Shown here: positions 2,553 through 18,301 of the stretch, piece after piece
How positions within the stretch are numbered: the stretch's first letter is position 1
Layout: the number at the start of each line of letters is the position of its first letter
Virus record (IMG/VR): IMGVR_UViG_3300025151_000305
Location: 1-23,708 of that record
From: a virus
DNA length: 23,708 bases
Direction: 5' to 3' (one strand)
Made by a program: the position numbers and the translations under genes
The notes under the pieces: generated by a model
Seen by the model: the letters and a program-made list of their open reading frames with translations, nothing else
Told to the model about the DNA's origin: nothing
Database searches by the model: none

Positions 2553-2636
2553 CCTTAAAGTTTCCTTAAAGCGTTGCCCATAAGGGGATAACTAAAAGAA
2601 AAGATAAAGACACTTATAGATACTAAAGGAGAGTAT
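2553..2636 (+). promoter_or_regulatory. Middle-region control segment and possible replication origin
   Basis: This 84-base gap follows the RNA polymerase gene. It carries two direct copies of CCTTAAAG (2553-2560 and 2564-2571), then the 17-base promoter-like element (2572-2588), then an A-rich, almost C-free stretch up to the ribosome site AAAGGAGAG (2625-2633). In T7 the primary replication origin lies just downstream of gene 1 and consists of phage promoters followed by AT-rich DNA; the arrangement here is similar. The promoter reading rests on a repeat seen in the sequence. The origin reading is inference from position and composition. Confidence 0.5.
2572..2588 (+). promoter_or_regulatory. 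Putative phage RNA polymerase promoter, copy 1
   Basis: CGTTGCCCATAAGGGGA occurs here and again, with all 17 bases identical, at 13702-13718. Both copies sit in non-coding DNA on the same strand directly ahead of a gene block. It ends in a purine run (GGGGA) preceded by an A/T tetrad, like the T7 promoter core, where TATA precedes the +1 GGGA. Transcripts would start at about 2584 with GGGG. No U-run follows and the internal stem is only 3 bp, so a terminator is unlikely. Confidence 0.6.
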
Positions 2637-3629
2637 ATGAGTAAATTAAAATTATTACCTGAGTTTTATGAGAGGATAGATAAAGCTGAGGAAGACTTAG
2701 GTAAGATATGTAATGACTTAAATATAAGCCTTCGTACTGGATATAGATGGCTTAAGAGACCTAAAGTAGAGGAGAAACCTACTACATCATTATCTATTGA
2801 TGAGTTATTATCTATTAGAGATACAATATTTAAAAACAAAACTAGATCAGAAAACTACAAGTCAGGAACTGATGTAGAGTTTAAGGATAATCTACCTATT
2901 GGTATCCTTCACTTTGGAGATATGCACTTAGATAGTGATGGGGTAGATCTACAATTAGTTGATTCCCATATAAAACTACTAAAAGAGACTCAAGGTCTTT
3001 ATGGAGGTAACTTAGGTGATACCACTAACAACTGGGTAGGGTTCTTAGGTAAACTATATGGTGAACAACACACTACAGTTGAAGAGAGTATACAGCTAAT
3101 TGAGCATTATATTGGTAAGAATTATTGGCTATATACTATTGTAGGTAATCATGATAAATGGAATGGAGGTGAATATGTAATAAGACAAGCAACTAAATAT
3201 AGTGGAGTCACAGGTGATGATATTAGGCTTATCCTTAAGTTTCCTAATGGTTCTGAGAATACCCTAAGAGCACGTCATCACTTCAAAGGATCTTCACAAT
3301 ATAACAATGCACAAGGATCGGTTAAGGAAGCCTTATTAGGAACTAGAGACGATATTATAATTCATGGGCACACTCATAGCTTAGGTTATTCTATAGTACC
3401 TCAACCAGAGACTAAGAAAATCTCCCATGCTTTATCTGTAGGTAGTTATAAACAGATAGATAGTTATAAGATAGATATGGGGTTTAGAGATGATAATATT
3501 AGTCCTTGTGTGGTTACTATTATAGATCCTAATCTACCTATGACTAACCTCGATAGGATTAAGGTGTTCTTTGATCCTTATGTGGGAGCTAATTATTTAA
3601 CAAAATTAAGGAAAGGATATGACTTATAA
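2637..3629 (+). CDS. Calcineurin-like metallophosphoesterase with N-terminal HTH-like segment
   Basis: Predicted binuclear-metal phosphoesterase of 330 residues. The core signatures are all present and in order: GDMHLD (94-99, DxH), NLGD (125-128), GNHD (170-173) and GHTH (244-247). These supply the Asp, His and Asn metal ligands of the family, so the protein is probably active as a phosphodiesterase or nuclease on nucleic acid. Residues about 21-41 (LGKICNDLNISLRTGYRWLKR) look like a helix-turn-helix, which would tether the enzyme to DNA. The start is supported by AAAGGAGAG at 2625-2633. It is the first gene after the promoter-like element, in the place where T7 has DNA ligase and small early genes. 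The substrate is unknown; SbcD/Mre11-like DNA processing is one possibility. Confidence 0.85.
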   Translation: MSKLKLLPEFYERIDKAEEDLGKICNDLNISLRTGYRWLKRPKVEEKPTTSLSIDELLSIRDTIFKNKTRSENYKSGTDVEFKDNLPIGILHFGDMHLDSDGVDLQLVDSHIKLLKETQGLYGGNLGDTTNNWVGFLGKLYGEQHTTVEESIQLIEHYIGKNYWLYTIVGNHDKWNGGEYVIRQATKYSGVTGDDIRLILKFPNGSENTLRARHHFKGSSQYNNAQGSVKEALLGTRDDIIIHGHTHSLGYSIVPQPETKKISHALSVGSYKQIDSYKIDMGFRDDNISPCVVTIIDPNLPMTNLDRIKVFFDPYVGANYLTKLRKGYDL

Positions 3630-3789
3630 AGAGAAAGTTAGAGAGCTATTGAATGATGTCTTTATTGATATAGATCAGATAAAAGACGAAGTAAAGAAGT
3701 TAAGGGCTAGGTTAGGTGTATTACACACCTTACAAGATATAGTATTTGAGAATTATACATTAAAAACAAAGGAAGAGAACAATGAATAG
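3619..3789 (+). CDS. Small 56-aa charged, probably helical protein
   Basis: Short gene of 57 codons starting at ATG 3619 behind AAGGAAAGGA (3608-3617). It overlaps the phosphoesterase end by 11 bases and the SSB start by 8, so it fills the gap between them exactly. The product is highly charged (for example YKEKVRELLNDVFIDIDQIK near the N terminus) with heptad-like spacing of I/V/L, suggesting a short coiled coil. There is no Cys and no membrane segment. I do not recognise a family. Overlaps of this type at both ends, like those of neighbouring genes, favour a real coupled gene over chance. Confidence 0.7.
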   Translation: MTYKEKVRELLNDVFIDIDQIKDEVKKLRARLGVLHTLQDIVFENYTLKTKEENNE

Positions 3790-4429
3790 ACCAGAAAAAC
3801 CATTCACAGTCAAAGGACAAAGATTAGTAAGCCCTAAAGGTAATGCTAAATGGTGTCATATTCAAGAGCCTGATAGATCTTTTGAACCTTTAGGAGACTA
3901 TAAGGTAGATTTAGTATGTGACCCTGATGATCCTACAGTTAAAGCTTTTATTGATAAGTTAGAGAAACTTAGAGATCAAGCATTCATTGAGACTAAAGGA
4001 AACCTTAAAGGGGCTAAGGCTAAACAGTTGAATAAAGCAGAAGTCTTTAAAGAAGAGGAAGATCAAGAGGGAGAACTTACTGGTAATGTTATCTTTAAGT
4101 TTAAATTAGGTAAAGTAGATAATAGAAAGAAAGGGCAGGATAGAGTATCTGTTATTGATGCTGATCGTAATGTTATAGCTGTACAAGATATTCCTCTAAT
4201 TGGTAATGGTTCTGTTATTAGATGTAAAGCCTATGTTAATCCTTATTATATGGCTAGTACTGTTACTGTAGGTGTTAGTCTTATCTGGGAAGTAGTACAG
4301 ATCATTGATCTTGTAGAGTATGGAGGAGGCTCTACTACAGATGGGTTTGATGACGAAGATGGTTATACTTCTGTGAGTGAAGAAGCTAGTGGGTTTGATG
4401 ATGAAGGAGATCAAGAAGATGACTTCTAG
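3782..4429 (+). CDS. Single-stranded DNA-binding protein, T7 gp2.5-like
   Basis: A 215-residue protein in the T7 gene 2.5 position. After a basic N-terminal half (KPFTVKGQRLVSPKGNAKW) with beta-strand-like segments, it ends in a long Asp/Glu tail (from about residue 180) that terminates in Phe. That design, an acidic tail with a C-terminal aromatic residue, is the hallmark of gp2.5, whose tail contacts DNA polymerase and helicase and competes with DNA for the OB-fold. Its role would be to coat single-stranded DNA at the fork and help annealing. The start has AAAGGAAGAG at 3768-3777. The length is close to T7 gp2.5 (232). The identification rests on position, length and tail rather than a strong sequence motif. 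Confidence 0.85.
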   Translation: MNRPEKPFTVKGQRLVSPKGNAKWCHIQEPDRSFEPLGDYKVDLVCDPDDPTVKAFIDKLEKLRDQAFIETKGNLKGAKAKQLNKAEVFKEEEDQEGELTGNVIFKFKLGKVDNRKKGQDRVSVIDADRNVIAVQDIPLIGNGSVIRCKAYVNPYYMASTVTVGVSLIWEVVQIIDLVEYGGGSTTDGFDDEDGYTSVSEEASGFDDEGDQEDDF

Positions 4430-4820
4430 GATACTTTATGTATCCTTACCTTTATACATAGAGACCGGTGTTAGAAAGAAGAAGAAACACTATTTAACTC
4501 TTAATAACTACCGTAACTGGCAGTTTAGAGTTAGTAATAATATTAAGAAGGTATATACAGCACAAGTAGGGAAGTTGCTTAAGGATATTCCTAATCTTTC
4601 CACGCCTATCAGCTTATCTTATACTATATATTATATGAATAGACGTAAGTTTGATTTAGATAATTATGGTGCAGTAGCTTCTAAGTTCTTTCAAGATACT
4701 TTAGTTACCTTTAATAAGATACCTGATGATGATTATGATAATGTAGTAGAGGTAGTCTTTAAGTTTGGTGGGATAGATAAAGAAAATCCTAGAATTGAAT
4801 GCAGTATAAAGGAGATTTAG
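4419..4820 (+). CDS. RusA-like Holliday junction endonuclease
   Basis: Small basic protein of 133 residues matching the RusA family pattern: FDLDN (78-82, carboxylates Asp79/Asp81), then Lys89 and Asp93 in SKFFQDTL, then IPDDDYDNVV (101-110). These acidic residues bind the metal for cutting branched DNA. It sits where T7 has gene 3 endonuclease I, and would resolve junctions and debranch DNA before packaging, so it is probably a non-orthologous replacement. The spacing between DLDN and the Lys is about four residues longer than in E. coli RusA, as I recall that sequence. I chose ATG 4419, behind AAGGAGA (4404-4410) and overlapping the SSB end by 11 bases. A GTG 42 bases upstream in the same frame has no ribosome site and would add an acidic-tail overlap. 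Confidence 0.8.
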   Translation: MTSRILYVSLPLYIETGVRKKKKHYLTLNNYRNWQFRVSNNIKKVYTAQVGKLLKDIPNLSTPISLSYTIYYMNRRKFDLDNYGAVASKFFQDTLVTFNKIPDDDYDNVVEVVFKFGGIDKENPRIECSIKEI

Positions 4821-5108
4821 ATGGATTACTATAATGAGTTTTGCTACATTATGAATTCTTTAGTTAATGAAGTAAAATACCTAGAACGTAGAGTAGAATA
4901 CCTAGATGAAAAGTGTAAAATAGAACAAGAAGCACTTAAGCAGATGGAGAAGGAAGGCTTAAGAGTTTCTAGGATAGATAAAAGAGATGAGTATTCTGTT
5001 GAGGCAAGGGCTCTAGGAAAAGTTGCTAAAAACCTGAGAGCAGCCCTAGAAAGTTCTGATAGATATTCAGAGCTCTTAGACGATTATGGTGTACAAAAGG
5101 GAGATTAA
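4821..5108 (+). CDS. 95-aa coiled-coil protein sharing a segment with the portal
   Basis: Highly charged, helical protein whose ATG directly follows the RusA stop; AAGGAG at 4809-4814 gives a six-base spacer. Residues 13-50 have heptad-like hydrophobic spacing typical of a coiled coil. Residues 34-49 (IEQEALKQMEKEGLRV) are almost identical to residues 117-132 of the portal protein encoded at 14294-15817 (IEQEALKQMEKEALRV). The rest is unlike the portal, and I know no family for it. It occupies the T7 gene 3.5 position but shows no amidase zinc motif and is too short to be a lysozyme. Function is unknown; a structural or regulatory partner is possible. Confidence 0.8.
   Translation: MDYYNEFCYIMNSLVNEVKYLERRVEYLDEKCKIEQEALKQMEKEGLRVSRIDKRDEYSVEARALGKVAKNLRAALESSDRYSELLDDYGVQKGD
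4920..4973 (+). repeat. 54-base near-repeat shared with the portal gene, copy 1
   Basis: Eighteen codons that match 14642-14695 at 45 of 54 bases by my base-by-base count. Translated, 15 of the first 16 residues are identical. The differences are mostly at third positions or synonymous leucine codons, so the protein sequence is better conserved than the DNA. Confidence 0.75.
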
Positions 5109-5111
5109 CGT

Positions 5112-6770
5112 GTGGAAAGAGAGAATCAAGGAGAGTTTCTATACCATACTTCATGTCCTAAATGTGGTTCTTCAGACGGTAATAGTGTCTATTCTAGTAA
5201 CACTACTTTTTGCTTTAGCTGTAATACTTGGTCTACTTTGGATGGTGTACAACCCCAAAGAAAGACCTCTAAGGATTCCATAATGGGTAAAGAAGTAGAA
5301 CTATTAGAAGGTGAGTATACTGAACTAAAGAAACGTAAGATACCACAGAAGATATGTAATAAGTATGATTATACTTTAGGGACTGATAAAAATGGTAATA
5401 AATGTCAGATAGCTAATTACTATAATAAAGAATCTCAATCTATAGCCCAAAAGCTTAGATATAGTGATAAAAGCTTTAAGTTTATAGGGAAACCTAAAGA
5501 GACTTTATTGTTTGGACAACAGTTATTTGGTGAAGGTGGTAAGGTAGTAACTATTACTGAGGGAGAATTAGATGCCTTATCTGTAGCTACTGCTTGGGAA
5601 GGTAAGTATCCTGTAGTATCTATACAGAATGGAGCAGGATCCGCTAAGAAAGAGATCTCTAAACAGATAGATTGGCTAAATACTTTTGAAAGTATAGTTA
5701 TATGGTTTGATAATGATGATGCAGGTAAGGAAGCAATAGAACAAGTAGTACCTTTATTTCCATCAGGTAAGGTTAAAGTAGTAACCCATAGTAAATATAA
5801 AGATGCTAATGAAGTATTAGTTAATGAAGGTATCTCTGGTATTGTAGATACTTTCTATAAGGCTAAAGAGTTTAGACCTGATGGTATTGTAGTAGCTAGT
5901 GATTTAGTAGAAGATGCTATAAAACCTACTGAATGGGGAACATCATGGGTCTTTGAAGGTATTACTAAGGCTACTTATGGTAGGCGATTAGGAGAACTTC
6001 ATCTACTAGGTGCAGGTGTAGGTATAGGTAAGACTGATTTTATTATGACTCAAATAGCCCATGATACAACTAAAGCTAATCTTAAGGTAGGTACTTTTAT
6101 GTTGGAACAAACACCTATAGAGACCCTTAAGCGTATAGCAGGTAAATTAGACGGTAAGCATTATCATTTACCTAATGATGGTGAAGGTCTATATAAGAAC
6201 TCAGAACTTAAAGATACTATAGAATCCATCAATAGTAGCGGTAATCTGTTTATGTATGATAGCTTTGGTGCTATCGATTGGGAAGTAATTAAGAGTAAGA
6301 TAAGGATTATGCACCATAACTTAGGAGTCGATTACTTCTACTTAGATAATATAACAGCTATTACGGCACAAGCTAGTGATGAGAGAAGATTCTTAGATGG
6401 TTTTATGGAAGAGTTAGCTAGTCTTTGTAAAGAATTAAATATATGGATACTAGCTATTAGCCATCTTACTACTCCTTCTAAGGGAGCTTCACATGAAGAA
6501 GGTGGTAGAGTAGAAGCTAAACAGTTCACAGGCTCTAGGGCTATTATGAGATGGGCACACTATATGTTTGGACTAGAGCGTAATAACCAACACGCAGATA
6601 AAGAGGAACGTAAGAAGACTATCTTTAGGTGTCTTAAGGATAGGTTTAGTGGTCAAGCAACTGGCAAGACTTTTAGTCTAAGGTATGATGATTCTAATGG
6701 ACTTCTTAGGGAAGTAGATGAGGAATGGGATAGTGTGGCACAAGAGGAGGAAGTGAATGAAGACTTCTAA
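5112..6770 (+). CDS. Primase-helicase, T7 gp4-like
   Basis: Bifunctional replication protein of 552 residues (T7 gp4A 566). The N-terminal Zn ribbon has Cys15/Cys18 (CPKC) and Cys34/Cys37 (CFSC). The TOPRIM primase core shows TEGELDA (149-155, Glu150) and WFDNDDAG (198-205). The RecA-like helicase has Walker A GAGVGIGKT (300-308), FMLEQ (329-333, catalytic-type Glu332), Walker B YFYLDN (408-413), a HLTTP segment (451-455) and QFTGSRAIMRW (471-481). The acidic tail ends in Phe552, like T7 gp4, whose tail docks on the polymerase. The start is GTG 5112, eight bases after AAGGGAG (5098-5104 region); it is needed to include the Zn ribbon. An internal start at 5283 is likely (separate entry). It makes primers and unwinds DNA ahead of the polymerase encoded at 7029. 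Confidence 0.97.
   Translation: MERENQGEFLYHTSCPKCGSSDGNSVYSSNTTFCFSCNTWSTLDGVQPQRKTSKDSIMGKEVELLEGEYTELKKRKIPQKICNKYDYTLGTDKNGNKCQIANYYNKESQSIAQKLRYSDKSFKFIGKPKETLLFGQQLFGEGGKVVTITEGELDALSVATAWEGKYPVVSIQNGAGSAKKEISKQIDWLNTFESIVIWFDNDDAGKEAIEQVVPLFPSGKVKVVTHSKYKDANEVLVNEGISGIVDTFYKAKEFRPDGIVVASDLVEDAIKPTEWGTSWVFEGITKATYGRRLGELHLLGAGVGIGKTDFIMTQIAHDTTKANLKVGTFMLEQTPIETLKRIAGKLDGKHYHLPNDGEGLYKNSELKDTIESINSSGNLFMYDSFGAIDWEVIKSKIRIMHHNLGVDYFYLDNITAITAQASDERRFLDGFMEELASLCKELNIWILAISHLTTPSKGASHEEGGRVEAKQFTGSRAIMRWAHYMFGLERNNQHADKEERKKTIFRCLKDRFSGQATGKTFSLRYDDSNGLLREVDEEWDSVAQEEEVNEDF
5271..5285 (+). promoter_or_regulatory. Internal ribosome site and ATG within primase-helicase (4B-like start)
   Basis: AAGGA at 5271-5275 lies seven bases before an in-frame ATG at 5283 (Met58, the first internal Met). 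Starting here would remove the whole Zn ribbon and give 495 residues. T7 makes the same pair, gp4A and the shorter gp4B from an internal start at Met64. The geometry is seen in the sequence; use of the site is inferred. Confidence 0.55.
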
Positions 6771-6969
6771 AGGTAGATACTTAATTAAAACAAAATATAA
6801 CCGTGATGACTATAAGGTATTTCATATATTTGATACTCGAAAATGGTTCTACAGATTAAGAGGCAAAACAATAAACTTAAATCCATACGTTTATGGTAGA
6901 CCGCACTGTACTGAAGAAAATGCCTTGAAAAGGTATAAAGAAATATATGAAGGAGTATATTATGATTAA
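6757..6969 (+). CDS. 70-aa basic hypothetical protein
   Basis: Small gene overlapping the end of the helicase gene by 14 bases, with a strong ribosome site GAGGAGG at 6744-6750. The product is basic and aromatic-rich (many Tyr, Phe and Trp, KWFYRLRGKTI near the middle) and has one Cys. There is no membrane segment. I do not recognise a family. Its place between helicase and polymerase suggests a replication or host-modification accessory protein, as with the small genes 4.x of T7, but nothing in the sequence shows a function. Confidence 0.75.
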   Translation: MKTSKGRYLIKTKYNRDDYKVFHIFDTRKWFYRLRGKTINLNPYVYGRPHCTEENALKRYKEIYEGVYYD

Positions 6970-7048
6970 AATGAGAGACGAGTTATATACTTTAAGAGCT
7001 GAGGTTAAAATATATAGGAAACATTTCAATGAACCAGATAGTCTTTGA
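6962..7048 (+). CDS. 28-aa peptide bridging into the DNA polymerase gene
   Basis: ATG 6962 follows AAGGAG (6950-6955) with a six-base spacer, better than the site of the polymerase itself (ATAGGAA, 7014-7020). It overlaps the 70-aa gene by 8 bases and runs 20 bases into the polymerase gene before TGA. The peptide is charged (MRDELYTLRAEVKIYRKH). It could be a real microprotein or a leader whose translation delivers ribosomes to the polymerase start. Confidence 0.5.
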   Translation: MIKMRDELYTLRAEVKIYRKHFNEPDSL

Positions 7049-8870
7049 TATAGAAACAGATGGTCTCCTCCTAGACTGCACTACTGTATGGTGTATAGCT
7101 ATCAAAGTTAATGATAATCCTACAGAAGTCTATACCCTTAATCCTATTAAAGGCTCAGCAGGGGGTATAGAAGACGCTCTAAGGCTTTTAAAGACAGCAG
7201 ACGTACTAATAGGTCATAATATTATAAACTTCGATCTACCTGCCTTATTTAAGCTTTATGAGGTATCTTATGATTGTAAATTATTTGATACTATTATAGC
7301 TAGTAAACTAGTCTATCCTAATATGCTTATGATAGATAGTAATAATAGTAAGCTAGGTAAGCTTATGGGATCTCATAGTCTTAAGGCTTGGGGAATTAGA
7401 TTAGGTAACTATAAAGATCAACATGAGGACTGGACTAAGCTTACTGAAGATATGGTAGAATATTGTAGACAAGATGTAGAGGTTAACTATACTCTCTATA
7501 ATAAGCTATTAACTAAGAATATTCCTGATGAAGCTATGAGACTAGAGCAAGAGTTTGCTAAGATCATACAGAGACAAGAAGCTAAGGGTTGGCTGTTTGA
7601 TGTTGAGAAGGCTAAAGAGCTTCATGTAGAATTGCTTAAGGAGAAGGAGAAGGCTCTTGAAGAATTACTTAAGGTCTTTAAGCCTATTAAGACTTGGTTT
7701 CCTTTAAATGAGATAAATAAGTATAAGAAAGATGGAAGCTTAACAGTTAACTATCAAAAACAATTAGATAAAGGAGCTTGTTATAATGATGCTTTAGAAT
7801 GGGGGTACTATCAAGAAGTAGGGTTTAATCCAGGCAGTGGTGCTCAGATATATAGGTGGGTGACTCATTACTTTGGTAAGCAGGATTGGGAGTTTACAGA
7901 GAAGGGAAGCCCTAAGACTGGTGAGAAAGATATACTTAAGTTATTCTCTGATAAGGATTGGGCTAAACCTTTAGTTCATTACTTCAATGTTAAAAAGTTA
8001 CTAGGACAACTAGCCGAAGGCAGCAATGCTTGGCTTAAGCTAGTAAGGGATGACAATAGAATACATGGTAGTGTAGATACTTTAGGAGCAGTTAGTCGTA
8101 GATGTACCCACAGGTATCCTAATGTAGCACAAGTACCTTCTAATAAAGCTTATAAAGGACATGAGTGTAGGTCATTATTTATATGTCCTGAAGGTTATAA
8201 GATAGTGGGGTGTGATGCTGATGGTTTAGAGCTTAGAACACTTAGTCACTACATGGCTAAATATGATGGAGGTAAATATGCTGAAGCTGTAGATAAAGGA
8301 GATAAGGATCAAGGTACTGATATTCATACAATGAATCAGAAAAGTGCAGGACTTCCTACGAAAGAGGACGCTAAGACATTTATCTATGCCTTCCTTTATG
8401 GGGCAGGTGATGAGAAGATAGGTAGTATTGTAGGAGGTTCTTCTAAAGAAGGTAAGAAACTTAAGAATAAGTTCTTTAAACAGATACCTGCCATTAAACA
8501 GTTAGTAGAAGCTGTTAAGACTAAAGTAGATCAACAAGGGTACTTAAAGGCTCTTGACGGTAATAAGTATTTTATTAGATCCTCTCATATTGCTCTTAAT
8601 ACTCTGCTACAAGGAGCAGGTGCTTTAGTAATGAAATACTACTGTGTCTTACTAGATAAAGAATTACAACTTCTTTTTAAGGAAGGTGTAGATTATGAGT
8701 TTATAGGTAACATCCATGATGAAGTACAGATAGAATGCATGGAAGATATAGCTGACTTGGTAGCTAAGATATGCGAGAGAACTTTTGATTTAGTTACAGA
8801 GGAACTTAACTTTAGGATACCTCTAAGAGGGTCAGCCGATATAGGCGATAACTGGTCAGAAACACATTAA
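7029..8870 (+). CDS. DNA polymerase, family A, T7 gp5-like
   Basis: Replicative polymerase with proofreading, 613 residues (T7 gp5 704). The exonuclease domain has FDIET (6-10, Asp7/Glu9), GHNIINFD (62-69) and YCRQD (145-149). The polymerase domain has motif A CDADGLELR (395-403, Asp396), motif B KTFIYAFLYGAG (449-460, with Tyr453 in the place of T7 Tyr526) and motif C HDE (563-565). The segment between the thumb helix (about 216) and FNPGS (266-270), where T7 carries its thioredoxin-binding insertion, is about 50 residues against about 75 in T7, so processivity-factor binding may differ. No thioredoxin gene is seen in the window. The start ATG 7029 places the DxE motif at the N terminus, as expected. 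Confidence 0.97.
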   Translation: MNQIVFDIETDGLLLDCTTVWCIAIKVNDNPTEVYTLNPIKGSAGGIEDALRLLKTADVLIGHNIINFDLPALFKLYEVSYDCKLFDTIIASKLVYPNMLMIDSNNSKLGKLMGSHSLKAWGIRLGNYKDQHEDWTKLTEDMVEYCRQDVEVNYTLYNKLLTKNIPDEAMRLEQEFAKIIQRQEAKGWLFDVEKAKELHVELLKEKEKALEELLKVFKPIKTWFPLNEINKYKKDGSLTVNYQKQLDKGACYNDALEWGYYQEVGFNPGSGAQIYRWVTHYFGKQDWEFTEKGSPKTGEKDILKLFSDKDWAKPLVHYFNVKKLLGQLAEGSNAWLKLVRDDNRIHGSVDTLGAVSRRCTHRYPNVAQVPSNKAYKGHECRSLFICPEGYKIVGCDADGLELRTLSHYMAKYDGGKYAEAVDKGDKDQGTDIHTMNQKSAGLPTKEDAKTFIYAFLYGAGDEKIGSIVGGSSKEGKKLKNKFFKQIPAIKQLVEAVKTKVDQQGYLKALDGNKYFIRSSHIALNTLLQGAGALVMKYYCVLLDKELQLLFKEGVDYEFIGNIHDEVQIECMEDIADLVAKICERTFDLVTEELNFRIPLRGSADIGDNWSETH

Positions 8871-8879
8871 GGAGTAGTT

Positions 8880-8960
8880 ATGGAGTATGAATTAGTTACA
8901 AGTTTTATTTTAATAGATAGTAAATATCAAGTTACTACTATGATGTATATATTATTTTAA
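8880..8960 (+). CDS. 26-aa hydrophobic peptide
   Basis: ATG 8880 is preceded by AAGGAG (8869-8874, overlapping the polymerase stop) with a five-base spacer, and the reading frame ends at TAA 8960, inside the ribosome site of the next gene. The peptide starts MEYELVTSFILIDSK and ends hydrophobic (MMYILF). It fills an otherwise empty 101-base gap. It is too short to assign; the good ribosome site and exact fit support translation. Confidence 0.5.
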   Translation: MEYELVTSFILIDSKYQVTTMMYILF

Positions 8961-8971
8961 GGAGAAAAAGA

Positions 8972-9568
8972 ATGAGTTTGATTGAGATTGCTAAATGGAA
9001 TTATGATAGAAATGATTTAGAGTGTGACTTTGAGTTAGAAGAGAATATGTTTGATGAGGAAGCTTACGAGTTTAAAATAGCTCTTAAGGATTATTTAAGA
9101 GATGATAACTTATTTAAACAAACAGCTGTTGTTGACATGATTGATGCTTATTGTGATTGTAACTTTGTACATAGTGGATCTATAGCTAAAGCCATAAATA
9201 ACTTTATGTATCTTAATGTTGAGGATAGAGAAAAACAGATGATCTATATGAATACCTTCATCATAGAAGCCTTAGTACGTCATGGGGTTAAAGTATATGA
9301 TAAAAAAGGTAAATCTATTATTGATTACGCTATGGGTTATGTTATTGAAGCTAATAAGAATAAACCTAAGGATAAAACAAAAAATAAGGTAGAGAAAGGG
9401 AAGGATTGGGTAGACCCTAAGAAGCGTATTGAGGATCTATTAGATGAACGAGGGTTTAATAGTGATGTTGAAGAAGTTAAGAGACTACGTGAACAAGAGA
9501 AGAACACTAAGACAGTTCCTGGAACTCTTGAAGCGTTTAATGAGTTAGAAGGAGAAGAAGATGAGTAG
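8972..9568 (+). CDS. Probable MazG/HisE-like NTP pyrophosphohydrolase
   Basis: Acidic protein of 198 residues with AAGGAG at 8959-8964. The pattern EExxE (Glu29, Glu30, Glu33 in FDEEAYEFK) followed by a DMID segment (55-58) resembles the Mg-binding helices of the all-alpha NTP pyrophosphohydrolase superfamily (MazG, HisE, dimeric dUTPase). The later VIEANKNK (124-131), followed by KGKDWVDP (142-149), fits the phage phosphoribosyl-ATP pyrophosphohydrolase-like branch, as I know it. The role would be to remove unwanted nucleotides or a nucleotide alarmone, next to the RNR and DUF3310 genes. The C-terminal 60 residues are charged and low complexity. The family call is moderate; the exact substrate cannot be read from the sequence. 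Confidence 0.6.
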   Translation: MSLIEIAKWNYDRNDLECDFELEENMFDEEAYEFKIALKDYLRDDNLFKQTAVVDMIDAYCDCNFVHSGSIAKAINNFMYLNVEDREKQMIYMNTFIIEALVRHGVKVYDKKGKSIIDYAMGYVIEANKNKPKDKTKNKVEKGKDWVDPKKRIEDLLDERGFNSDVEEVKRLREQEKNTKTVPGTLEAFNELEGEEDE

Positions 9569-9863
9569 TCCACAAGCCCACATCCATGAGATAACGAGTA
9601 CTGATACGATCTTACCATCAACATCACTTAACTTAAATTCTAATGAGATTGATTTAAGACCTAAACAAGTAGGGGGTAATCACTATAGAGATATGAGAAT
9701 ACAACCTATTGATTATACATTAGCTAATGACTTAGGTTATTGTGAAGGTAATGTTATTAAATATGTGTCTAGGTATAGAAAGAAGAATGGATTAGAGGAT
9801 TTAGAGAAAGCTAAGCACTACATTGAGATTCTTATAGGGAGGTATAAAAATGAAAAAATCTAA
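9561..9863 (+). CDS. DUF3310 protein, possibly related to T7 gp1.7 nucleotide kinase
   Basis: A 100-residue protein with a poorly conserved Ser/Thr-rich N terminus (1-33) and the compact DUF3310 pattern after it: GGNHY (38-42), IQPIDY (47-52), GNVIKYVSRYRKK (63-75) and DLEKAKHYIE (80-89). This domain is common in phages; T7 gp1.7, reported as a nucleotide kinase, is placed in the same family as far as I recall. It overlaps the preceding gene by 8 bases (ATGAGTAG) and has AAGGAG at 9549-9554. The setting, between a pyrophosphohydrolase and RNR, fits nucleotide metabolism. No Walker A motif is visible, so a kinase role is uncertain. Confidence 0.8.
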   Translation: MSSPQAHIHEITSTDTILPSTSLNLNSNEIDLRPKQVGGNHYRDMRIQPIDYTLANDLGYCEGNVIKYVSRYRKKNGLEDLEKAKHYIEILIGRYKNEKI

Positions 9864-10035
9864 ACTTTTAAATGTACTAGGATGGGTATGCTTATTTATC
9901 GCAATAGGGATTACTATAACAGCTATGGTGTCTCCTGATCTTGTTGCCCTTAAGGATGAAGCTAATTGGTTTATTATGATGAGTATGATATTTTCAGTAC
10001 ATAGTAGTGTTGAGAGAGGACTAGAACGTGGCTAG
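9850..10035 (+). CDS. 61-aa two-TM membrane protein
   Basis: Small protein with a basic N terminus (MKKSK), a hydrophobic helix at about 8-27 (VLGWVCLFIAIGITITAMV region) and a second at about 38-53 (ANWFIMMSMIFSV), joined by a short acidic loop, so both ends would face the same side. It overlaps the DUF3310 gene by 14 bases and nrdA by 8; GGGAGG at 9837-9842 is the ribosome site. It looks somewhat like a small holin, but placement among replication genes argues for early or middle expression. It contains the promoter-like near match at 9943-9959. No family recognised. Confidence 0.7.
   Translation: MKKSKLLNVLGWVCLFIAIGITITAMVSPDLVALKDEANWFIMMSMIFSVHSSVERGLERG
9943..9959 (+). promoter_or_regulatory. 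Degenerate copy of the promoter-like element upstream of nrdA
   Basis: GTTGCCCTTAAGGATGA matches the two intergenic elements at 12 of 13 bases over GTTGCCC-N-TAAGG, then diverges. It is on the same strand, inside the 61-aa gene and about 70 bases before the nrdA start. It may be a weaker phage promoter for the RNR genes. It is also fully coding (residues V-A-L-K-D-E), so chance is possible. Confidence 0.35.
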
Positions 10036-11797
10036 AGTTAAGATTGATTTAACAAGAGACAACTTACTAGATGATTTTGCTAAGAATCTAATCAGTAAGC
10101 ATTATCTATTAGAAGGAGAGACAAGTCCTCAAGAAGCCTTTGCTAGGACAGCAGAGTATTTCTGTAAGGATAAAATTTCACCTGATGGTATACTACCTCA
10201 AAGGATATATGATTATGTATCTAAGGGTTGGTTTATGTTCTCTAGTCCTATCCTCTCTAACTCACATGATGGGAAAGGTATGCCTATTAGTTGTTTCTTA
10301 AACTATGTAGAGGATTCAATAGACGGACTCAATAACCATACAGTAGAGACTAGACTACTATCAGTAGCAGGCGGAGGAGTAGGAGGTCATTGGAGTGATA
10401 TAAGGTCTCTTAATGATATTAGTCCCGGAGTTCCCGGATGGCTACATACAGTAGATTCTGATATGGTTGCTTACAAACAAGGAGCTACTAGACGAGGGGC
10501 TTATGCAGGGTATTTAGACATTAGTCATCCTGATATTGTAGAGTTTATTAAGATGAGAACACCTACCGGTGATGTTAATAGGAAGTCCCTTAACTTACAT
10601 CATGGTGTTAATATAACTGATGAATTTTTAGAAGCTGTTAAGGAGGACTTAGATTTTGATCTAGTAGACCCTCATAACAACGAGACTAAAGAGACCGTAA
10701 GGGCTAGAGACCTTTGGGAACTACTATTAACTACTAGGTTCAGAACAGGAGAACCTTATCTTAATTATATAGATGAAGCCAATAGAAAGTTAAACCCTTA
10801 TTTAAAAAGTAGAGGATTACAAATAAATGGTAGTAATCTTTGTAATGAAATACATCTTCCTACAGGTAAGGATTACACAGCTGTGTGTTGTTTATCAAGT
10901 GTTAATATAGCTAGGTATGATGAATGGAAAGATACAGATATGGTTAACGACTTAGTATTCTTCTTAGACCGAGTACTAGATAATTTCATAAAGAAAGGAG
11001 TTAAGCTCCCTAGTGCAGTTAAAAGTGCTAAGAGTGAAAGAAGTATTGGATTAGGGGCTATGGGGTTTGCTGATTATTTACAAAATAAAGGAATTCCTTT
11101 TGAGAGTAGTATAGCTATCTCATTGAATAGAAGTATATTTAAGCAAATAAAAGATGAAGCTGTTAATAGGTCAGGAAGAGCGGCTACAATATATGGAGAA
11201 CCTGAGTACCTTAGAGGATCTAATAGACGTAATGCTCACTTACTAGCTATTGCTCCCAATGCTAATTCAAGTATTATGTTAGGGTGTTCTCCTTCTATTG
11301 AACCTAGGCTATCTAATTGCTATACTCAAAAGACTAGAGTAGGTAGCTACCTTGTTAAAAATCCTGAGCTTAAGGAATTGCTATTCTGTATAGGTAAGGA
11401 TACTGATGAAGTTTGGAAGGATATTCTTAATAATGATGGATCAGTACAACACTTAGATTTCTTAAGTGATTCAGATAAGGAAATATTTAAGACAGCTTAT
11501 GAACTAGATCAACGGTGGGTAGTAGATATGGCTAGAAGCAGACAAGAGTATATATGCCAAGGGCAGTCTGTTAATGTATTCTTTCCTTCTGGTACAGATA
11601 AAGGATACTTAAACTCAGTACATTTAAGAGCATTCTCTAGGGACGATAACGCTATAGGAGACCCTCTAAAAGGTCTTTATTATCTTAGGACGTCTAGCGG
11701 TGCTACAGTTGAGAAAGTATCCTTAAAGGTACAGAGAGATGCCTTAAAGGACGGAGTAGCAGGTTCTACTAATGAGTGCCTCGCTTGTGAGGGATAG
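10028..11797 (+). CDS. nrdA: Class I ribonucleoside-diphosphate reductase, alpha subunit
   Basis: Converts ribonucleotides to deoxyribonucleotides, together with the beta subunit at 11906. The three catalytic-site cysteines are present: Cys89 (PISCF), Cys272 in the N-x-C-x-E triad (Asn270, Cys272, Glu274), and Cys287 (AVCCLS). The paired tyrosines Tyr551/Tyr552 (GLYYLRT) match the radical-transfer pair of E. coli NrdA. The tail CLAC (584-587) would be the redox shuttle regenerated by host thioredoxin or glutaredoxin. At 589 residues it is well short of E. coli NrdA (761), and no N-terminal ATP-cone is visible, so overall dATP inhibition should be absent. The start is GTG 10028, overlapping the preceding stop by 8 bases, with GAGAGGA at 10014-10020. 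Confidence 0.95.
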   Translation: MARVKIDLTRDNLLDDFAKNLISKHYLLEGETSPQEAFARTAEYFCKDKISPDGILPQRIYDYVSKGWFMFSSPILSNSHDGKGMPISCFLNYVEDSIDGLNNHTVETRLLSVAGGGVGGHWSDIRSLNDISPGVPGWLHTVDSDMVAYKQGATRRGAYAGYLDISHPDIVEFIKMRTPTGDVNRKSLNLHHGVNITDEFLEAVKEDLDFDLVDPHNNETKETVRARDLWELLLTTRFRTGEPYLNYIDEANRKLNPYLKSRGLQINGSNLCNEIHLPTGKDYTAVCCLSSVNIARYDEWKDTDMVNDLVFFLDRVLDNFIKKGVKLPSAVKSAKSERSIGLGAMGFADYLQNKGIPFESSIAISLNRSIFKQIKDEAVNRSGRAATIYGEPEYLRGSNRRNAHLLAIAPNANSSIMLGCSPSIEPRLSNCYTQKTRVGSYLVKNPELKELLFCIGKDTDEVWKDILNNDGSVQHLDFLSDSDKEIFKTAYELDQRWVVDMARSRQEYICQGQSVNVFFPSGTDKGYLNSVHLRAFSRDDNAIGDPLKGLYYLRTSSGATVEKVSLKVQRDALKDGVAGSTNECLACEG

Positions 11798-11799
11798 TT

Positions 11800-11892
11800 A
11801 TGGGAGTAGTAGAGTACGAATCTCCTATCTTAGCTGTATTAATAATTATATTTTTATTGACTGTGACATTAGATTATATAGATTCAAAATAG
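11800..11892 (+). CDS. 30-aa single-TM membrane peptide between nrdA and nrdB
   Basis: ATG 11800 lies two bases after the nrdA stop, with GAGGGA (11789-11794) five bases upstream, and the frame ends at TAG 11892 just before the nrdB ribosome site. The peptide has an acidic N terminus, one strongly hydrophobic helix (PILAVLIIIFLLTVTL, about residues 9-24) and a polar end. It fills the 108-base gap. A very short transmembrane peptide is a plausible host-interaction product, but no function can be assigned. Confidence 0.6.
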   Translation: MGVVEYESPILAVLIIIFLLTVTLDYIDSK

Positions 11893-11905
11893 ATAAAGGA
11901 TATAG

Positions 11906-12844
11906 ATGAGCAGAAGCATTTTTAAAAAGAGTAATGTATATAAGCCTTTCGACTACAGTTGGGCTGATGAGTACCGTAAGGTATCAGAAAACTCTCATTG
12001 GATAGTTGAAGAAGTAGATATGACTAAAGACTTAGAAGACTTTAGGATGGCTGATGAAGGCACTAGGCAGTTTATTAAGAATATCTTAAGTATCTTTACA
12101 GAGTCAGATCATGCAGTAGGTAATGGATACATAGGACTGATGAATGAGGTTAGGAATAGTGAGATAAGAGGGATGTTGACTAGCTTTGCGGCTAGAGAGT
12201 GGATACATCAAGAAGGATATGCTTATCTTAATGAGTCTTTAGGTCTTCCTGAGAACTACTATTCAGAGTTCTTAAAGTATCCTGAGACTGTAGCTAAAGC
12301 TGAAGCCGCTTGGTTTGAAGGATATGATAATATACAACATAAATTAGCTAAACAGGTATGCCTTGAAGGTATCTCTTTGTTTGGTTCTTTTATAATGCTT
12401 AAGAATTTTGAAAGGTTAGGTAAGTTCTTAGGGACTTGTAAGATTAATGAATGGAGTCTTAAAGATGAGACACTCCATGTACAAGGACTGTCTAGGCTAT
12501 TCAGAGAGATCTGTAATGAGAGACCTGAGACAGTTAATGATGGGTTTAAAAAAGAGATATATAAGATGGTTAGGACTATAGTTAATATAGAACATTCCTT
12601 TATTGATTTTGCTTTTAAAGGATTCTCTCCTGAGGGACTAGATAAAAGAGATGTTAAGACCTATATAGAATATATAGCTGATAGACGATTAATACAATTA
12701 GGACTCAAAGAGAATTATAAGATAGGAGAGAATCCTTTATCTTGGTTCGATGAACTGACTAACGGTTCTAGCTTACAGAATTTCTTTGAAGGGAGATCAG
12801 CTGATTATGATGTAGCAGGACTAACAGGGGAATGGAGGTATTAG
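11906..12844 (+). CDS. nrdB: Class I ribonucleoside-diphosphate reductase, beta subunit
   Basis: Ferritin-fold radical-generating subunit, 312 residues (E. coli NrdB 376). All expected metal ligands are visible: Asp68 (TESD), Glu98 and His101 (REWIH), Glu154 (CLEG), Glu188 and His191 (KDETLH). Tyr105, four residues after His101, is in the position of the E. coli radical tyrosine Tyr122, so this looks like a tyrosyl-radical enzyme rather than a Phe-type one. The C-terminal end (GLTGEWRY) would dock on NrdA. The start ATG follows AAAGGA (11895-11900). It sits in one operon with nrdA, separated only by the 30-aa membrane peptide. Confidence 0.96.
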   Translation: MSRSIFKKSNVYKPFDYSWADEYRKVSENSHWIVEEVDMTKDLEDFRMADEGTRQFIKNILSIFTESDHAVGNGYIGLMNEVRNSEIRGMLTSFAAREWIHQEGYAYLNESLGLPENYYSEFLKYPETVAKAEAAWFEGYDNIQHKLAKQVCLEGISLFGSFIMLKNFERLGKFLGTCKINEWSLKDETLHVQGLSRLFREICNERPETVNDGFKKEIYKMVRTIVNIEHSFIDFAFKGFSPEGLDKRDVKTYIEYIADRRLIQLGLKENYKIGENPLSWFDELTNGSSLQNFFEGRSADYDVAGLTGEWRY

Positions 12845-13624
12845 ATGATAGCCTTAGTAGATGCTGACTCTCTTATTTACAAAGCAGGATTTACCTTTGA
12901 GGATAAGTTCTGTTGGAATGAACTAGAGTTAGAATTAGGTATAGATGAAGTCAGAGAAGAGCAAGTAACTTATGATGTCCTCCTAGCTAAGAATGCTATA
13001 GATGCTTGTATAGAAAACATAAAGTTTAATACTGGATGTGATGAGGTAGAGTTATGGCTTACATCAGGTAGTAATTTCAGATACGAGGTCTATGAGGACT
13101 ATAAGAGTAATAGGAAGTCAGGAGGTAAACCTTTAGCCTATGATAGCTTATTCAAGTACCTCATAGATAAATATAAAGCTAATGTAGCCTACGGTGTAGA
13201 AGCTGATGATATAGTAGTTTTTAAGAAGACTAAGTACCCTGATGATTATTACTTATGTGCTATAGATAAGGATGTCTTACTACAGACTGAAGGGTCTCAC
13301 CTTAATTATAATAATAATGATATAGTAAAGGTAACCTCTAAGGAAGCTGAAAGGTTCTTTTATTTTCAAACATTAATGGGAGATGTGACAGATGGTTATC
13401 CCGGATGTAAGGGTATAGGTAAAGTAAAAGCTAATAAGATCCTAGATGAATGCGAGAAGGAAGGGTTAGATTATTGGGAGACTATAGTAACCACTTATGA
13501 ATCTAAAGGTCTTACTGAAGAGTTTGCTCTGTCTCAGGCTAGATGTGCTTCAATGCATCAAGTTTCTATAGATAAAGAAGGAAAATTTAAGATAGACTTA
13601 TGGTCTCCTGAAAGTCACAAATAA
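12845..13624 (+). CDS. 5'-3' exonuclease, FEN/T7 gp6-like
   Basis: Flap/5' nuclease family protein of 259 residues (T7 gp6 about 300). Metal-binding acidic residues appear in the usual order: VDADS (5-9), VEADD (118-122), AIDKD (139-143) and GDVTDG (179-184). The last leads into a helix-hairpin-helix-like segment, YPGCKGIGKVKANKIL (185-200). YKSNRK (86-91) corresponds to the basic helical arch. Its likely roles are primer removal, degradation of host DNA and processing of concatemers. Its ATG abuts the nrdB stop, and GGAGG (12834-12838) is the ribosome site. It is the last gene before the large non-coding gap. Confidence 0.92.
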   Translation: MIALVDADSLIYKAGFTFEDKFCWNELELELGIDEVREEQVTYDVLLAKNAIDACIENIKFNTGCDEVELWLTSGSNFRYEVYEDYKSNRKSGGKPLAYDSLFKYLIDKYKANVAYGVEADDIVVFKKTKYPDDYYLCAIDKDVLLQTEGSHLNYNNNDIVKVTSKEAERFFYFQTLMGDVTDGYPGCKGIGKVKANKILDECEKEGLDYWETIVTTYESKGLTEEFALSQARCASMHQVSIDKEGKFKIDLWSPESHK

Positions 13625-13701
13625 TACTTTAATGTGTCTTAAATGTATTAAACCTAAAAAACACCCTCTAAGTACCACCATTAAGGGCTTGGCTGAAGAT
13701 A

Positions 13702-13718
13702 CGTTGCCCATAAGGGGA
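13702..13718 (+). promoter_or_regulatory. Putative phage RNA polymerase promoter, copy 2 (late)
   Basis: Exact 17-base copy of the element at 2572-2588, placed ahead of the virion genes. A transcript starting in the GGGG (13714-13717) would begin with the 8-bp hairpin described in the next entry. Confidence 0.6.
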
Positions 13719-13736
13719 GAAGATTTTTATCTTTTC
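13717..13736 (+). other. Hairpin at the predicted 5' end of the late transcript
   Basis: GAGAAGAT (13717-13724) pairs with ATCTTTTC (13729-13736) around a TTTT loop: 8 bp with one G-U pair. It begins within the last G of the promoter-like element, so it could cap and stabilise the late mRNA. It is not followed by a U-run, which argues against a terminator. Confidence 0.45.
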
Positions 13737-13784
13737 AATTTATGTTCTTTTATTATTAAAATAAATAGAGCAATATAAAACACT

Positions 13785-13853
13785 TAAGGGGGTAAGGGGG
13801 TTACCTTAAAGAATACTATAAGACTCTTAAAGAGACTTAAAGAGGCTATAAGA
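13785..13853 (+). repeat. Cluster of short direct repeats in the late leader
   Basis: TAAGGGGG occurs twice in tandem (13785-13792, 13793-13800). CTTAAAGAG(A/G) occurs twice in tandem (13826-13835, 13836-13845). CTATAAGA flanks the latter pair (13816-13823, 13846-13853). The purine tracts with CTTAAAG steps may bind a protein or form RNA structure; function unknown. Confidence 0.5.
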
Positions 13854-13875
13854 TATTACTACTAATTACTATTAT

Positions 13876-13888
13876 AATTAATAATAAA
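13876..13888 (+). repeat. AT leader motif AATTAATAATAAA, copy 1
   Basis: The same 13 bases occur twice more in tandem before the capsid gene (17162-17189). Here they lead directly into the ribosome site of the first late gene. An unstructured A/U-rich leader would favour ribosome loading. Confidence 0.5.
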
Positions 13889-13896
13889 GGAACTAT

Positions 13897-14085
13897 ATGG
13901 TAAATCATAAACAAGGTAAGATAAAGATAAATCAAGACACTGAAGGTATCTTAGAGACTCTTAAAGAGAGGTTTCCTGATAAACTCCCTAAGAAAGTTAA
14001 AGACATAGAGGAGGTTAATAAGTTAATTGGTAATCAAGAGGTAATCTCTTATTTAGAAGCATATTTAAATACAAAGGATAATTAA
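13897..14085 (+). CDS. 62-aa hypothetical protein, first gene of the late block
   Basis: Small lysine-rich helical protein starting behind AAAGG (13886-13890), with the AT leader motif just upstream. It contains KLPKKVKDIEEVNKLIG and a predicted amphipathic C-terminal helix (SYLEAYLN); no Cys and no membrane segment. Its stop overlaps the next start (TAATG). Its position between the late control region and the gp7.3-like gene suggests a virion or assembly role, such as that of small T7 genes 6.5-7, but I recognise no family. Confidence 0.7.
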   Translation: MVNHKQGKIKINQDTEGILETLKERFPDKLPKKVKDIEEVNKLIGNQEVISYLEAYLNTKDN

Positions 14086-14297
14086 TGGGAGGACTATTTG
14101 GAGGTACTCCATCAGTACAACCTATAGCGGCTACACCTGAACAAGCACCTCAGGAGTCTGAAGCTAGTGCTGTATTAGAGGAGTTTACTGATGAGGAAGC
14201 AGAAAAGAAAAAAAGAGAGACTAAAACTAAGGGTACTTCAGCTCTACAAATACCCTTAGGTACAACAACAGGTGGTAGTACTGTAGGTGTGGTATGA
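14085..14297 (+). CDS. Small T7 gp7.3-like virion/assembly protein
   Basis: A 70-residue low-complexity protein: Gly-rich N terminus (MGGLFGG), Pro/Glu/Ala middle, a KKKRETKTKG basic patch, then a TSALQIPLG segment and a Gly/Thr-rich end. T7 gp7.3, encoded just before gene 8, has the same organisation: a basic patch followed by a short serine/glycine tail. The position immediately before the portal also matches. In T7 that protein takes part in tail assembly and is ejected with the DNA. The similarity is in composition and order rather than a strict motif, so the call is tentative. The start overlaps the previous stop by one base and the end overlaps the portal start by four (ATGA). Confidence 0.5.
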   Translation: MGGLFGGTPSVQPIAATPEQAPQESEASAVLEEFTDEEAEKKKRETKTKGTSALQIPLGTTTGGSTVGVV

Positions 14298-15817
14298 GTT
14301 TTGATATAAACAAAGAACTAGAGGACACTACAGCTAAAAGTAGATTCACTCAGTTAGATCAGAATAGATCTAGTGTATTAACTAGAGCTAGAGACTGCTC
14401 ATCTCTAACACTACCTTCTGTATTACCTGCTGACGGTCATACAGAAGAGACTACCTTAGAGACTCCTTATCAGGGTCTAGGAGCTAGGTTAGTGAATGGC
14501 TTAGCTAGTAAATTATTATTAGCTTTACTTCCTCCTAACACTAACTTCTTTAGATTAATGATTAAGGAAGAAGTTAGAGACACAGCAGAACGTACTGGAC
14601 GTACTCAGGAACTAGATAGAGCAGAGAACACATTGGTGTCTATCGAACAAGAAGCTTTAAAGCAGATGGAGAAGGAAGCCCTAAGAGTCCCTAGCTTTGA
14701 ACTATTTAAGTCTCTTATTATAACCGGTAATTCTTTAGGTTATAAGACACCTACTGGACTTAAATCCTATAAACTGGATCAGTATGTAGTACAAAGAGAC
14801 TTTGAAGGCAGTGTTACAGAGATTATAACTAAAGAGATGAAATCTAAATACTCCTTACCTGACGATTTACTTAATGCTATTGAGTTTGAATCTGAAGAAG
14901 AAACAGAAGTAGCTATATATACTAGAGCTGTGTTGAGAGAAGGTACTTGGTATGAGTGGCAAGAGGTAGGAGATACCCTTGTAAATAATTCATTAACTAA
15001 TTACAAAAAAGAAAAGAACCCTTATATACCCTTACGGTGGACTTCTATCAATGGTGAGAACTACGGTAGAGGTCTAGTAGAACAATACTTAGGGGACTTT
15101 AGAAATCTTGAGGCATTATATCAACTAACCGTAGAGACAGCCGCCGTACAAGCTAGGACTATCTTTGGTATTAGACCCGGATCTTTAACCGACATGGATG
15201 CTTTAAACAAAGCTACTAATGGTGAGGTAGTATCTGGTGATCTGGAAGAAGATCTAACTGTATTAAGAGTAGAGAAAGGAAGTGATCTAAATATCCCTTT
15301 AAATCTAATCGAGACTTTAACTAGACGATTAGAACAAGCCTTCTTATCAGCAACAAGTGCTGTTAGGGACTCTGAAAGGACTACACTAGGTGAGATTAGA
15401 TTCTTAGCTAGTGATCTTGAAGAGTCTCTAGGAGGTGTTTATTCAATATTAAGCCAAGAGTTCCAACTACCTTTAGCTAATGTTATGCTGAATAATATAG
15501 AGACTCAGGTAGATATGGAAGGGCTTGACCTAATTATTGTAACTGGTGTAGAAGCACTAGGACGTAATAACGATATTGAAAAACTTAGACAACTTAATGG
15601 TCTCCTTCAAGAGTTAGGAAGCCCTGAGCGAGTCTTAGAAAAAATGAATATTGATAACTATATCAACGATATAGCTAAGAACTTAGGGTTACCTGAAGGT
15701 AGGTACATAAAAGGTCAGGAGCAGTTACAAGCTGAACAACAACAAGCGGCTTCACAGCAACTAGAACAACAAGCGGCTACTAATATGGTAGATAACGCAA
15801 CACAACAACAAGGATAA
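14294..15817 (+). CDS. Portal (head-tail connector), T7 gp8-like
   Basis: Dodecameric portal through which DNA is packaged and ejected; 507 residues (T7 gp8 536). Landmarks of T7-type portals are visible: an N-terminal RDCSSLTLPSVLP segment (33-45), QGLGARLVNGLASKLLLALLPP (60-81, shared hydrophobic helix), a helical stretch leading to FELFKSLIITGNS (135-147), RWTSINGENYGRG (250-262) and a long C-terminal helical domain. The end is Gln/Ala-rich, with two near copies of EQQ(Q)AA. Residues 117-132 are nearly identical to part of the 95-aa protein encoded at 4821. There is no strong ribosome site; an ATGA overlap suggests coupling to the gp7.3-like gene. Confidence 0.93.
   Translation: MSFDINKELEDTTAKSRFTQLDQNRSSVLTRARDCSSLTLPSVLPADGHTEETTLETPYQGLGARLVNGLASKLLLALLPPNTNFFRLMIKEEVRDTAERTGRTQELDRAENTLVSIEQEALKQMEKEALRVPSFELFKSLIITGNSLGYKTPTGLKSYKLDQYVVQRDFEGSVTEIITKEMKSKYSLPDDLLNAIEFESEEETEVAIYTRAVLREGTWYEWQEVGDTLVNNSLTNYKKEKNPYIPLRWTSINGENYGRGLVEQYLGDFRNLEALYQLTVETAAVQARTIFGIRPGSLTDMDALNKATNGEVVSGDLEEDLTVLRVEKGSDLNIPLNLIETLTRRLEQAFLSATSAVRDSERTTLGEIRFLASDLEESLGGVYSILSQEFQLPLANVMLNNIETQVDMEGLDLIIVTGVEALGRNNDIEKLRQLNGLLQELGSPERVLEKMNIDNYINDIAKNLGLPEGRYIKGQEQLQAEQQQAASQQLEQQAATNMVDNATQQQG
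14642..14695 (+). repeat. 54-base near-repeat shared with the 95-aa gene, copy 2
   Basis: Counterpart of 4920-4973, within the portal gene (residues 117-134). In the portal the segment belongs to a helix just before the conserved FELFKSLIITGN stretch, so this copy is the likelier ancestral one. Confidence 0.75.
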
Positions 15818-17019: not shown

Positions 17020-17071
17020 ATAGGCTAGAGTAATACAAGGGATTTCCTCCTTTACCCTTGTACTAGCCTAT
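17020..17071 (+). other. Long hairpin between scaffold and capsid genes
   Basis: ATAGGCTAG (17020-17028) and TACAAGGG (17034-17041) pair with CCCTTGTA (17055-17062) and CTAGCCTAT (17063-17071), about 17 bp with a five-base bulge (17029-17033) and a 13-base loop. No U-run follows, so it is more likely an RNase III-type processing or stability element than an intrinsic terminator. Confidence 0.65.
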
Positions 17072-18215: not shown

Positions 18216-18238
18216 TATTCTAGGAGACGTCCTAGAGT
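18216..18238 (+). terminator. Hairpin after the capsid gene (possible T-phi-like terminator)
   Basis: TATTCTAGGA pairs with TCCTAGAGTA around GACG, about 10 bp with one G-U pair. It lies within a few bases of the capsid stop and is followed by ATCTTTAT, only a weak U-run. T7 has its main terminator at the same place, after gene 10. Partial termination or RNA processing are both possible. Confidence 0.5.
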
Positions 18239-18280
18239 ATCTTTATAGAGTCTTATAGATCTATAGGGTTCTATAAAGAT
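18239..18280 (+). other. Second hairpin after the capsid gene
   Basis: ATCTTTATAG (18239-18248) and CTATAAAGAT (18271-18280) are perfect 10-base inverted arms. Inside them CTTATA/TATAGG (18252-18257, 18262-18267) form a further 6-bp stem on a GATC loop, separated by a 3x3 internal loop. It sits back to back with the previous hairpin and just before the tail gene ribosome site. This is like RNase III processing stems in T7 mRNA, but the role is inferred. Confidence 0.6.
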
Positions 18281-18301
18281 ATAAAACAATAAAGGAAACA
18301 A

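Follow-up and report, generated by a model that had tools for sequence, protein, structure and literature searches.

A 17-bp repeat as the predicted promoter of an adjacent T7-type RNA polymerase in an uncultivated phage

We propose that the 17-bp sequence CGTTGCCCATAAGGGGA is the core (approximately -12 to +5) of a promoter used by the T7-type single-subunit RNA polymerase whose gene lies beside it, and we consider this prediction very likely to be right. The repeat was found in a 23,708-nt stretch of viral DNA (hereafter the window), which is the entire 23.7-kb virus record IMGVR_UViG_3300025151_000305. An earlier note had read it as a candidate phage promoter, and this reading is supported by four sites at the starts of gene blocks, by syntenic motifs in related phages, by PWM ranking and by covariation with the specificity hairpin of the polymerase. 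Elements of this kind are already known; what the evidence supports is a T7-type promoter of new specificity. The result is a testable polymerase-promoter pair from an uncultivated phage, in which transcription of the whole genome would run from four sites.

The repeat and its positions

Exactly two copies of CGTTGCCCATAAGGGGA are present in the window, both on the + strand and with 0 mismatches, at the positions and on the strand where they had been claimed. Their identity extends over exactly 17 bases and the neighbouring letters differ at both ends. No further match with up to three mismatches occurs in the window (0 expected from 100 shuffles), and the window is equally free of other matches when four mismatches are allowed. 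The copies and their surroundings are as follows.

2566-2571, + strand: A/T-rich TTAAAG upstream of copy 1, at -18 to -13, as in T7-type promoters
2572-2588, + strand: putative promoter copy 1, CGTTGCCCATAA followed by GGGGA, 20 nt past the stop codon of the RNA polymerase gene
2584: predicted +1 of copy 1, with a leader of 53 nt to the gene at 2637
2589-2648, + strand: A/T-rich stretch 3' of copy 1 (60 bp, 77% A+T, 94th percentile)
13696-13701: AAGATA upstream of copy 2, the counterpart of TTAAAG at copy 1
13702-13718, + strand: putative promoter copy 2, the same 17-mer as copy 1, upstream of the virion block
13714: predicted +1 of copy 2, with a leader of 183 nt to the gene at 13897
13719-13778, + strand: A/T-rich stretch 3' of copy 2 (60 bp, 85% A+T, top of the genome)

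From the end of copy 1 to the gene at 2637 there are 49 nt. Copy 2 is situated between a 5'-3' exonuclease-like gene, which ends at 13624, and the virion genes, with portal at 14294 and capsid at 17206. The two gaps hosting the repeat had been described as the only sizeable ones outside the capsid region. This is not correct: 8871-8971 is also a gap and 3630-3781 is without an ORF of at least 60 aa; neither carries a copy of the 17-mer.

Only two direct repeats of at least 17 bp exist in the window, the 17-mer and a pair at 4938/14660. The latter was rejected as a candidate, both copies being coding and in the same reading frame. It consists of 19 exactly repeated bp (4938-4956 and 14660-14678) within a 53-bp stretch that is 87% alike, and because both copies are translated in the same frame (EALKQMEKE-LRV), a small unknown ORF (4821-5108) and the portal gene share a segment. 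The best partial match to the 17-mer, TGTTGCCCTTAAGGATG at 9942, was rejected as well; it falls within an ORF and has no conserved counterpart in the near-identical virus described below.

Copies in a near-identical virus

The window being a whole record, a relative is needed to read the early region. We used IMGVR_UViG_3300031977_002617, which has 44,727 bp and is 93-98% identical across most of the window. The polymerases of the two viruses are 100% identical in the best segment and their translations differ in one residue. The right end of the window continues into the other end of the relative, so the record of the latter appears nearly closed. It harbors four copies of the 17-mer, three of them exact and one with C-12 changed to T, at the following places.

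53 nt past the large terminase gene
before an early gene block (gene at 14769)
after the RNA polymerase gene
before the virion block

All four copies lie outside genes and on the coding strand. The 17-mer is found at the start of a gene block at 4 of 4 sites in the full-length relative and at both sites in the window. The earlier note had proposed a genome search of this kind and had named many copies inside genes or on both strands as the pattern that would speak against a promoter. Such a pattern is absent from the 44.7-kb virus, where 4 of 4 copies are intergenic and co-directional and 0 are in reverse. Since the two viruses are close kin and not phylogenetically independent, the relative adds sites, not independent lineages. 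An exact 17-mer in IMGVR_UViG_3300037455_000184, an unrelated virus, was taken as chance, as it falls within a gene in antisense orientation. Scans for host promoters in the early region of the 44.7-kb virus gave no more matches than shuffles.

The surroundings of the copies bear on a different idea, namely that the repeat is mainly a replication element. It would then be a transcription-primed origin like that at T7 phi1.1A/B, where a promoter and an A/T-rich stretch start DNA synthesis. The primary origin of T7 is situated at the phi1.1A/B place, right after the polymerase gene, and copy 1 directly follows the polymerase gene too. In A+T content, the 60 bp 3' of copy 1 reach the 94th percentile and those 3' of copy 2 the top one, and related A/T-rich blocks trail several copies. 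However, 3' of the other two copies the A+T content is unremarkable (58th and 77th percentile), and four copies at gene-block starts exceed what origins need. A mainly replicative role therefore appears unlikely to us. Because the origin role in T7 depends on the site being a promoter, the origin reading adds to the promoter reading rather than replaces it, and the A/T-rich sequence 3' of copies 1 and 2 may leave room for such an extra role.

Comparison of the two viruses yielded several minor observations. A 39-bp in-frame stretch of the window (9604-9643) is missing from the near-identical virus. Together with its edges, it matches 41 bp of an early gene of that virus exactly, in reverse complement (IMGVR_UViG_3300031977_002617 reversed, 14000-14040), and it looks like a templated, strand-switching insertion. 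Few parts differ as much between the two viruses as the tail-fibre end of the window (23065-23701), and the contig of the other virus is broken there. In the same reversed numbering, a noncoding A/T-rich gap of 867 bp follows the terminase gene (12237-13103). It is rich in short repeats, one of them a unit of about 33 bp that occurs twice, and is probably the genome-end region. Early genes at 17418-18176 and 19480-19908 (reversed) are built from short peptide repeats; one product is pentapeptide-repeat-like (AN/DL units) and one has AQVHGE/VSDNA units.

The polymerase and its specificity hairpin

The gene preceding copy 1 encodes a polymerase of the T7 family (Pfam RNA_pol, 2e-82; T7 RNAP fold, TMq up to 0.79), and T7 RNAP is its best match both by sequence and by predicted fold. 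No ATG is present near the 5' end of the gene and TTG at position 45 is the likely start.

45-2552, + strand: T7-type single-subunit RNA polymerase gene, presumed cognate (835 aa, TTG start)
2157-2228, + strand: specificity hairpin, residues 705-728
2175-2177: R711, aligned with T7 R746
2181-2183: N713, aligned with T7 N748
2208-2210: Y722 at a 758-like place, 11 residues past R711, as Tyr in GTTGC-type phages

The predicted model has a beta-hairpin (705-714 and 717-728) at the place of the T7 specificity loop, with pLDDT below 50 at its tip (712-721). The specificity loop had been said to differ from that of T7. Overall this is true, but the T7 residues R746 and N748 are retained.

Among named polymerases, those of Lau218 (36% identity) and Roseobacter phage CRP-143 (33%) are the nearest. 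The nearest relatives are 32-36% identical and no named polymerase exceeds approximately 36%; in a tree, the window polymerase forms a long branch. Megablast of the window against named phages gave 0 matches.

Motifs in related phages

An automated repeat search was performed at about 115 related RNA polymerase loci. Repeat blocks were picked by a script blind to polymerase residues, and the register was set by an EM motif model seeded from T7, T3, SP6, K11, Syn5 and VSW-3, where for T3, SP6 and K11 we used what we take to be their promoter sequences. With a cut-off at EM score 4, 14 loci fell below, and some repeat blocks (e.g. L145 and L152) were dropped by this score, not manually. The sites that passed number 55 including T7, or 40 representatives once polymerases at least 80% alike were removed. 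Because a motif had to be a repeat beside RNAP to be chosen, and was then registered with T7-like anchors, this selection favours fits and T7-like answers.

A short direct repeat directly before or after RNAP was encountered repeatedly in the IMG/VR relatives of the polymerase. The repeats of related loci occupy the same places as the window copies and, once registered on known phage promoters, fit one -13/+3 model. For example, in Roseobacter phage CRP-171 GATTAGGTTGCACCATAG flanks RNAP on both sides and also precedes the virion block; partial copies are found at further places, among them the region 3' of the terminase gene. The window motif aligns in register with motifs of the GGTTGCAC type, and the closest ones are GTTGCCCACAAGG (locus L105) and GTTGCCCAATAG (locus L065). 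When a PWM was trained with the window left out, the two copies came 2nd and 11th among 47,386 positions.

CRP-143 has a different motif, TGTGTCAAGTCTACGCTATA, at the same kinds of place. The motifs of CRP-143 and L022 were rejected; they find no placement in the T7 register and do not fit the model (EM score -2.6). In Lau218 there is no comparable clear motif, only A/T-rich repeats beside RNAP. The nearest polymerase relatives thus do not share the motif or its register, which counts against the promoter reading.

Synteny also bears on the simplest explanation, that the repeat arose by chance or by recent duplication and has no function. Some copies did arise by duplication, since the flanks of some align as well (73-84% over 49-94 bp). 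Yet shuffles lead one to expect 0 matches, the 17-mer is fully kept while the flanks diverge, and motifs of distant phages occupy syntenic places. We regard a functionless repeat as extremely improbable.

Covariation of polymerase and promoter

Among the 40 representatives, an acidic residue 748 goes with C at -11 in 11 of 11 cases and Lys, Arg or Asn goes with G in 20 of 24 (Fisher p 3e-6). Further, Tyr in the 758 column is associated with G-8 (p 1e-4). When the window and T7 are left out, 748/-11 ranks first and 758/-8 sixth of 3,480 column-position pairs; permutation of the named pairs gave 0 of 100,000 for the former and 8e-5 for the latter. Both are known contact positions in T7, where N748 is reported to contact -10/-11 and Q758 to contact -8 (PMC5937735).

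There are two important aspects of these numbers. Firstly, the unrestricted covariation maximum is only borderline when compared with shuffles, whose own maximum is 0.41 (observed 0.42) at one cut-off and 0.51 (observed 0.46) at the other, so the significance is carried by the a priori pairs. Residue 746 hardly varies and its pairing with -7 is therefore uninformative (rank 100 or lower). Secondly, there are 12 changes of acidic 748 on a tree for which the loop columns were left out. Five supported independent pairs show C-11 in the same direction in 4.6 (average) and in the opposite one in 0, a number of pairs that alone cannot reach p<0.05.

The other phages also allow predictions for the window. 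Its equivalents of R746, N748 and the Tyr predict C-7 (31 of 33), G-11 (18 of 22) and G-8 (11 of 13), and the 17-mer carries all three bases. When possible starts were compared, only +1 at the first G of GGGG gave all three together with C-5 and G+1. The start within GGGG suggested in the earlier note is thus the sole register that fits the residue predictions.

We find it reasonably probable that promoter and polymerase have co-switched specificity many times across uncultivated T7-like phages under a simple code, in which residue 748 sets -11 (acidic for C; Lys, Arg or Asn for G) and the 758-like residue sets -8 (Tyr for G, Lys for C). The window pair would then be one solved instance, with a shortened specificity hairpin, and a phage promoter would be largely predictable from the polymerase sequence. 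Through natural covariation at 748/-11 and 758/-8, what is known of these contacts in T7 is extended to dozens of wild pairs. Such covariation can aid promoter annotation in unannotated phages and serve as a source of orthogonal transcription pairs.

Comparison with known promoters

The site displays the core pattern of a T7-type promoter, CGTTGCCC followed by ATAA and GGGGA, that is, an A/T-rich upstream part, C-7, C-5, A/T-rich -4 to -1 and a G start. With the T7 class III promoter (Autographiviridae), TAATACGACTCACTATA followed by GGGAGA, it has C-12, G-11, C-7, C-5, A-1 and G+1 to G+3 in common. Both systems have A/T-rich sequence upstream, use one coding strand and place sites after RNAP, before virion genes and after terminase (phi1.1A/B, phi6.5 and phiOR in T7). 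They differ at -10 to -8, which is TTG here and ACT in T7, and in number, with four copies of the window type, one per block, against more than 12 annotated T7 promoters. We do not expect T7 polymerase to use the window-type promoter.

The putative promoters of CRP-171 and related IMG/VR phages (GGTTGCAC core) are identical to the window site in GTTGC-C at -11 to -5, in the same register and at the same genome places. Positions -12 and -6 differ, the polymerases are only about 27-30% identical, and these promoters are likewise putative.

The mapped Syn5 promoter is ATTGGGCACCCGTAA followed by GGG; Syn5 has two promoters, the main one inside the RNAP gene (PMC3950665). It resembles the window site in CCC at -7 to -5, TAA at -3 to -1, the GGG start and the very low number of promoters per genome, but has GGCA at -11 to -8 instead of GTTG and its main promoter lies within RNAP. 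In VSW-3, the promoter TTAATTGGGCCACCTATA followed by GTA, with its TSS determined by 5' RACE, occurs in four copies, one just after RNAP and three intergenic elsewhere (PMC9624206). It was discovered by the same logic and agrees in the four copies and in the one directly 3' of RNAP, but it has other specificity bases and A at -7.

In KP34, a strong mapped promoter, T(A/G)ATGTTACAGGAGTA, is located directly behind the RNAP gene, whereas the only long repeat of that phage, a predicted promoter, failed in vitro (PMC6834552). The position behind RNAP is shared with the window. In contrast to the window site, the KP34 promoter is without C-7 and C-5, and the longer KP34 repeat is inactive. This inert repeat illustrates that a repeat alone can mislead.

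It also raises the question whether the 17-mer might be a site for something else, such as a host sigma factor, a repressor, RNase III, a terminator or a packaging signal. Like such sites, it is short, intergenic and near genome landmarks, and, as seen in KP34, repeats can be non-promoters. Nevertheless, the 600 bp around copy 2 (13500-14100) are without a sigma-70-like + strand element or a terminator-like element, Rfam and tRNA scans gave 0 matches, and RNA around copies 1 and 2 folds ordinarily (z -0.1 to -1.7). Moreover, the copies are strictly one-directional, and covariation of homologous sites with residues 748 and 758 of the polymerase would not be expected if their role were a different one. 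Any such role seems very unlikely to us.

A possible model of transcription

A promoter read by the adjacent polymerase can be placed in a mechanism modelled on T7. The copies, their places and strand, the family of the polymerase and the covariation are observed; the start of transcription at the site, its exact +1 and the order in time are what we infer here. Host polymerase would first produce the phage polymerase. Its specificity hairpin would then read CGTTGCCC (-12 to -5) in the major groove, with presumed contacts of the N748-equivalent at -11, of the R746-equivalent at -7 and of Y722 near -8. The A/T-rich ATAA (-4 to -1) beside CGTTGCCC would melt and RNA would begin at the first G of GGGG, at 2584 and 13714. 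The DNA-metabolism block that follows the polymerase gene would be transcribed from copy 1 and the virion block from copy 2; two further copies in the full genome, after the terminase gene and before an early gene block, would complete the set of four. Four sites for a whole genome would require long transcripts, as is the case in Syn5.

Two RNA structures were observed in the virion block. A strong fold (z -3.0) lies between the scaffold and capsid genes (17020-17070), where no promoter copy is present. Directly after the capsid gene, at the place of the T7 terminator Tphi, are two stacked hairpins (18219-18282), the second with a 21-bp stem (z -6.5), which could be a terminator or an RNase III site.
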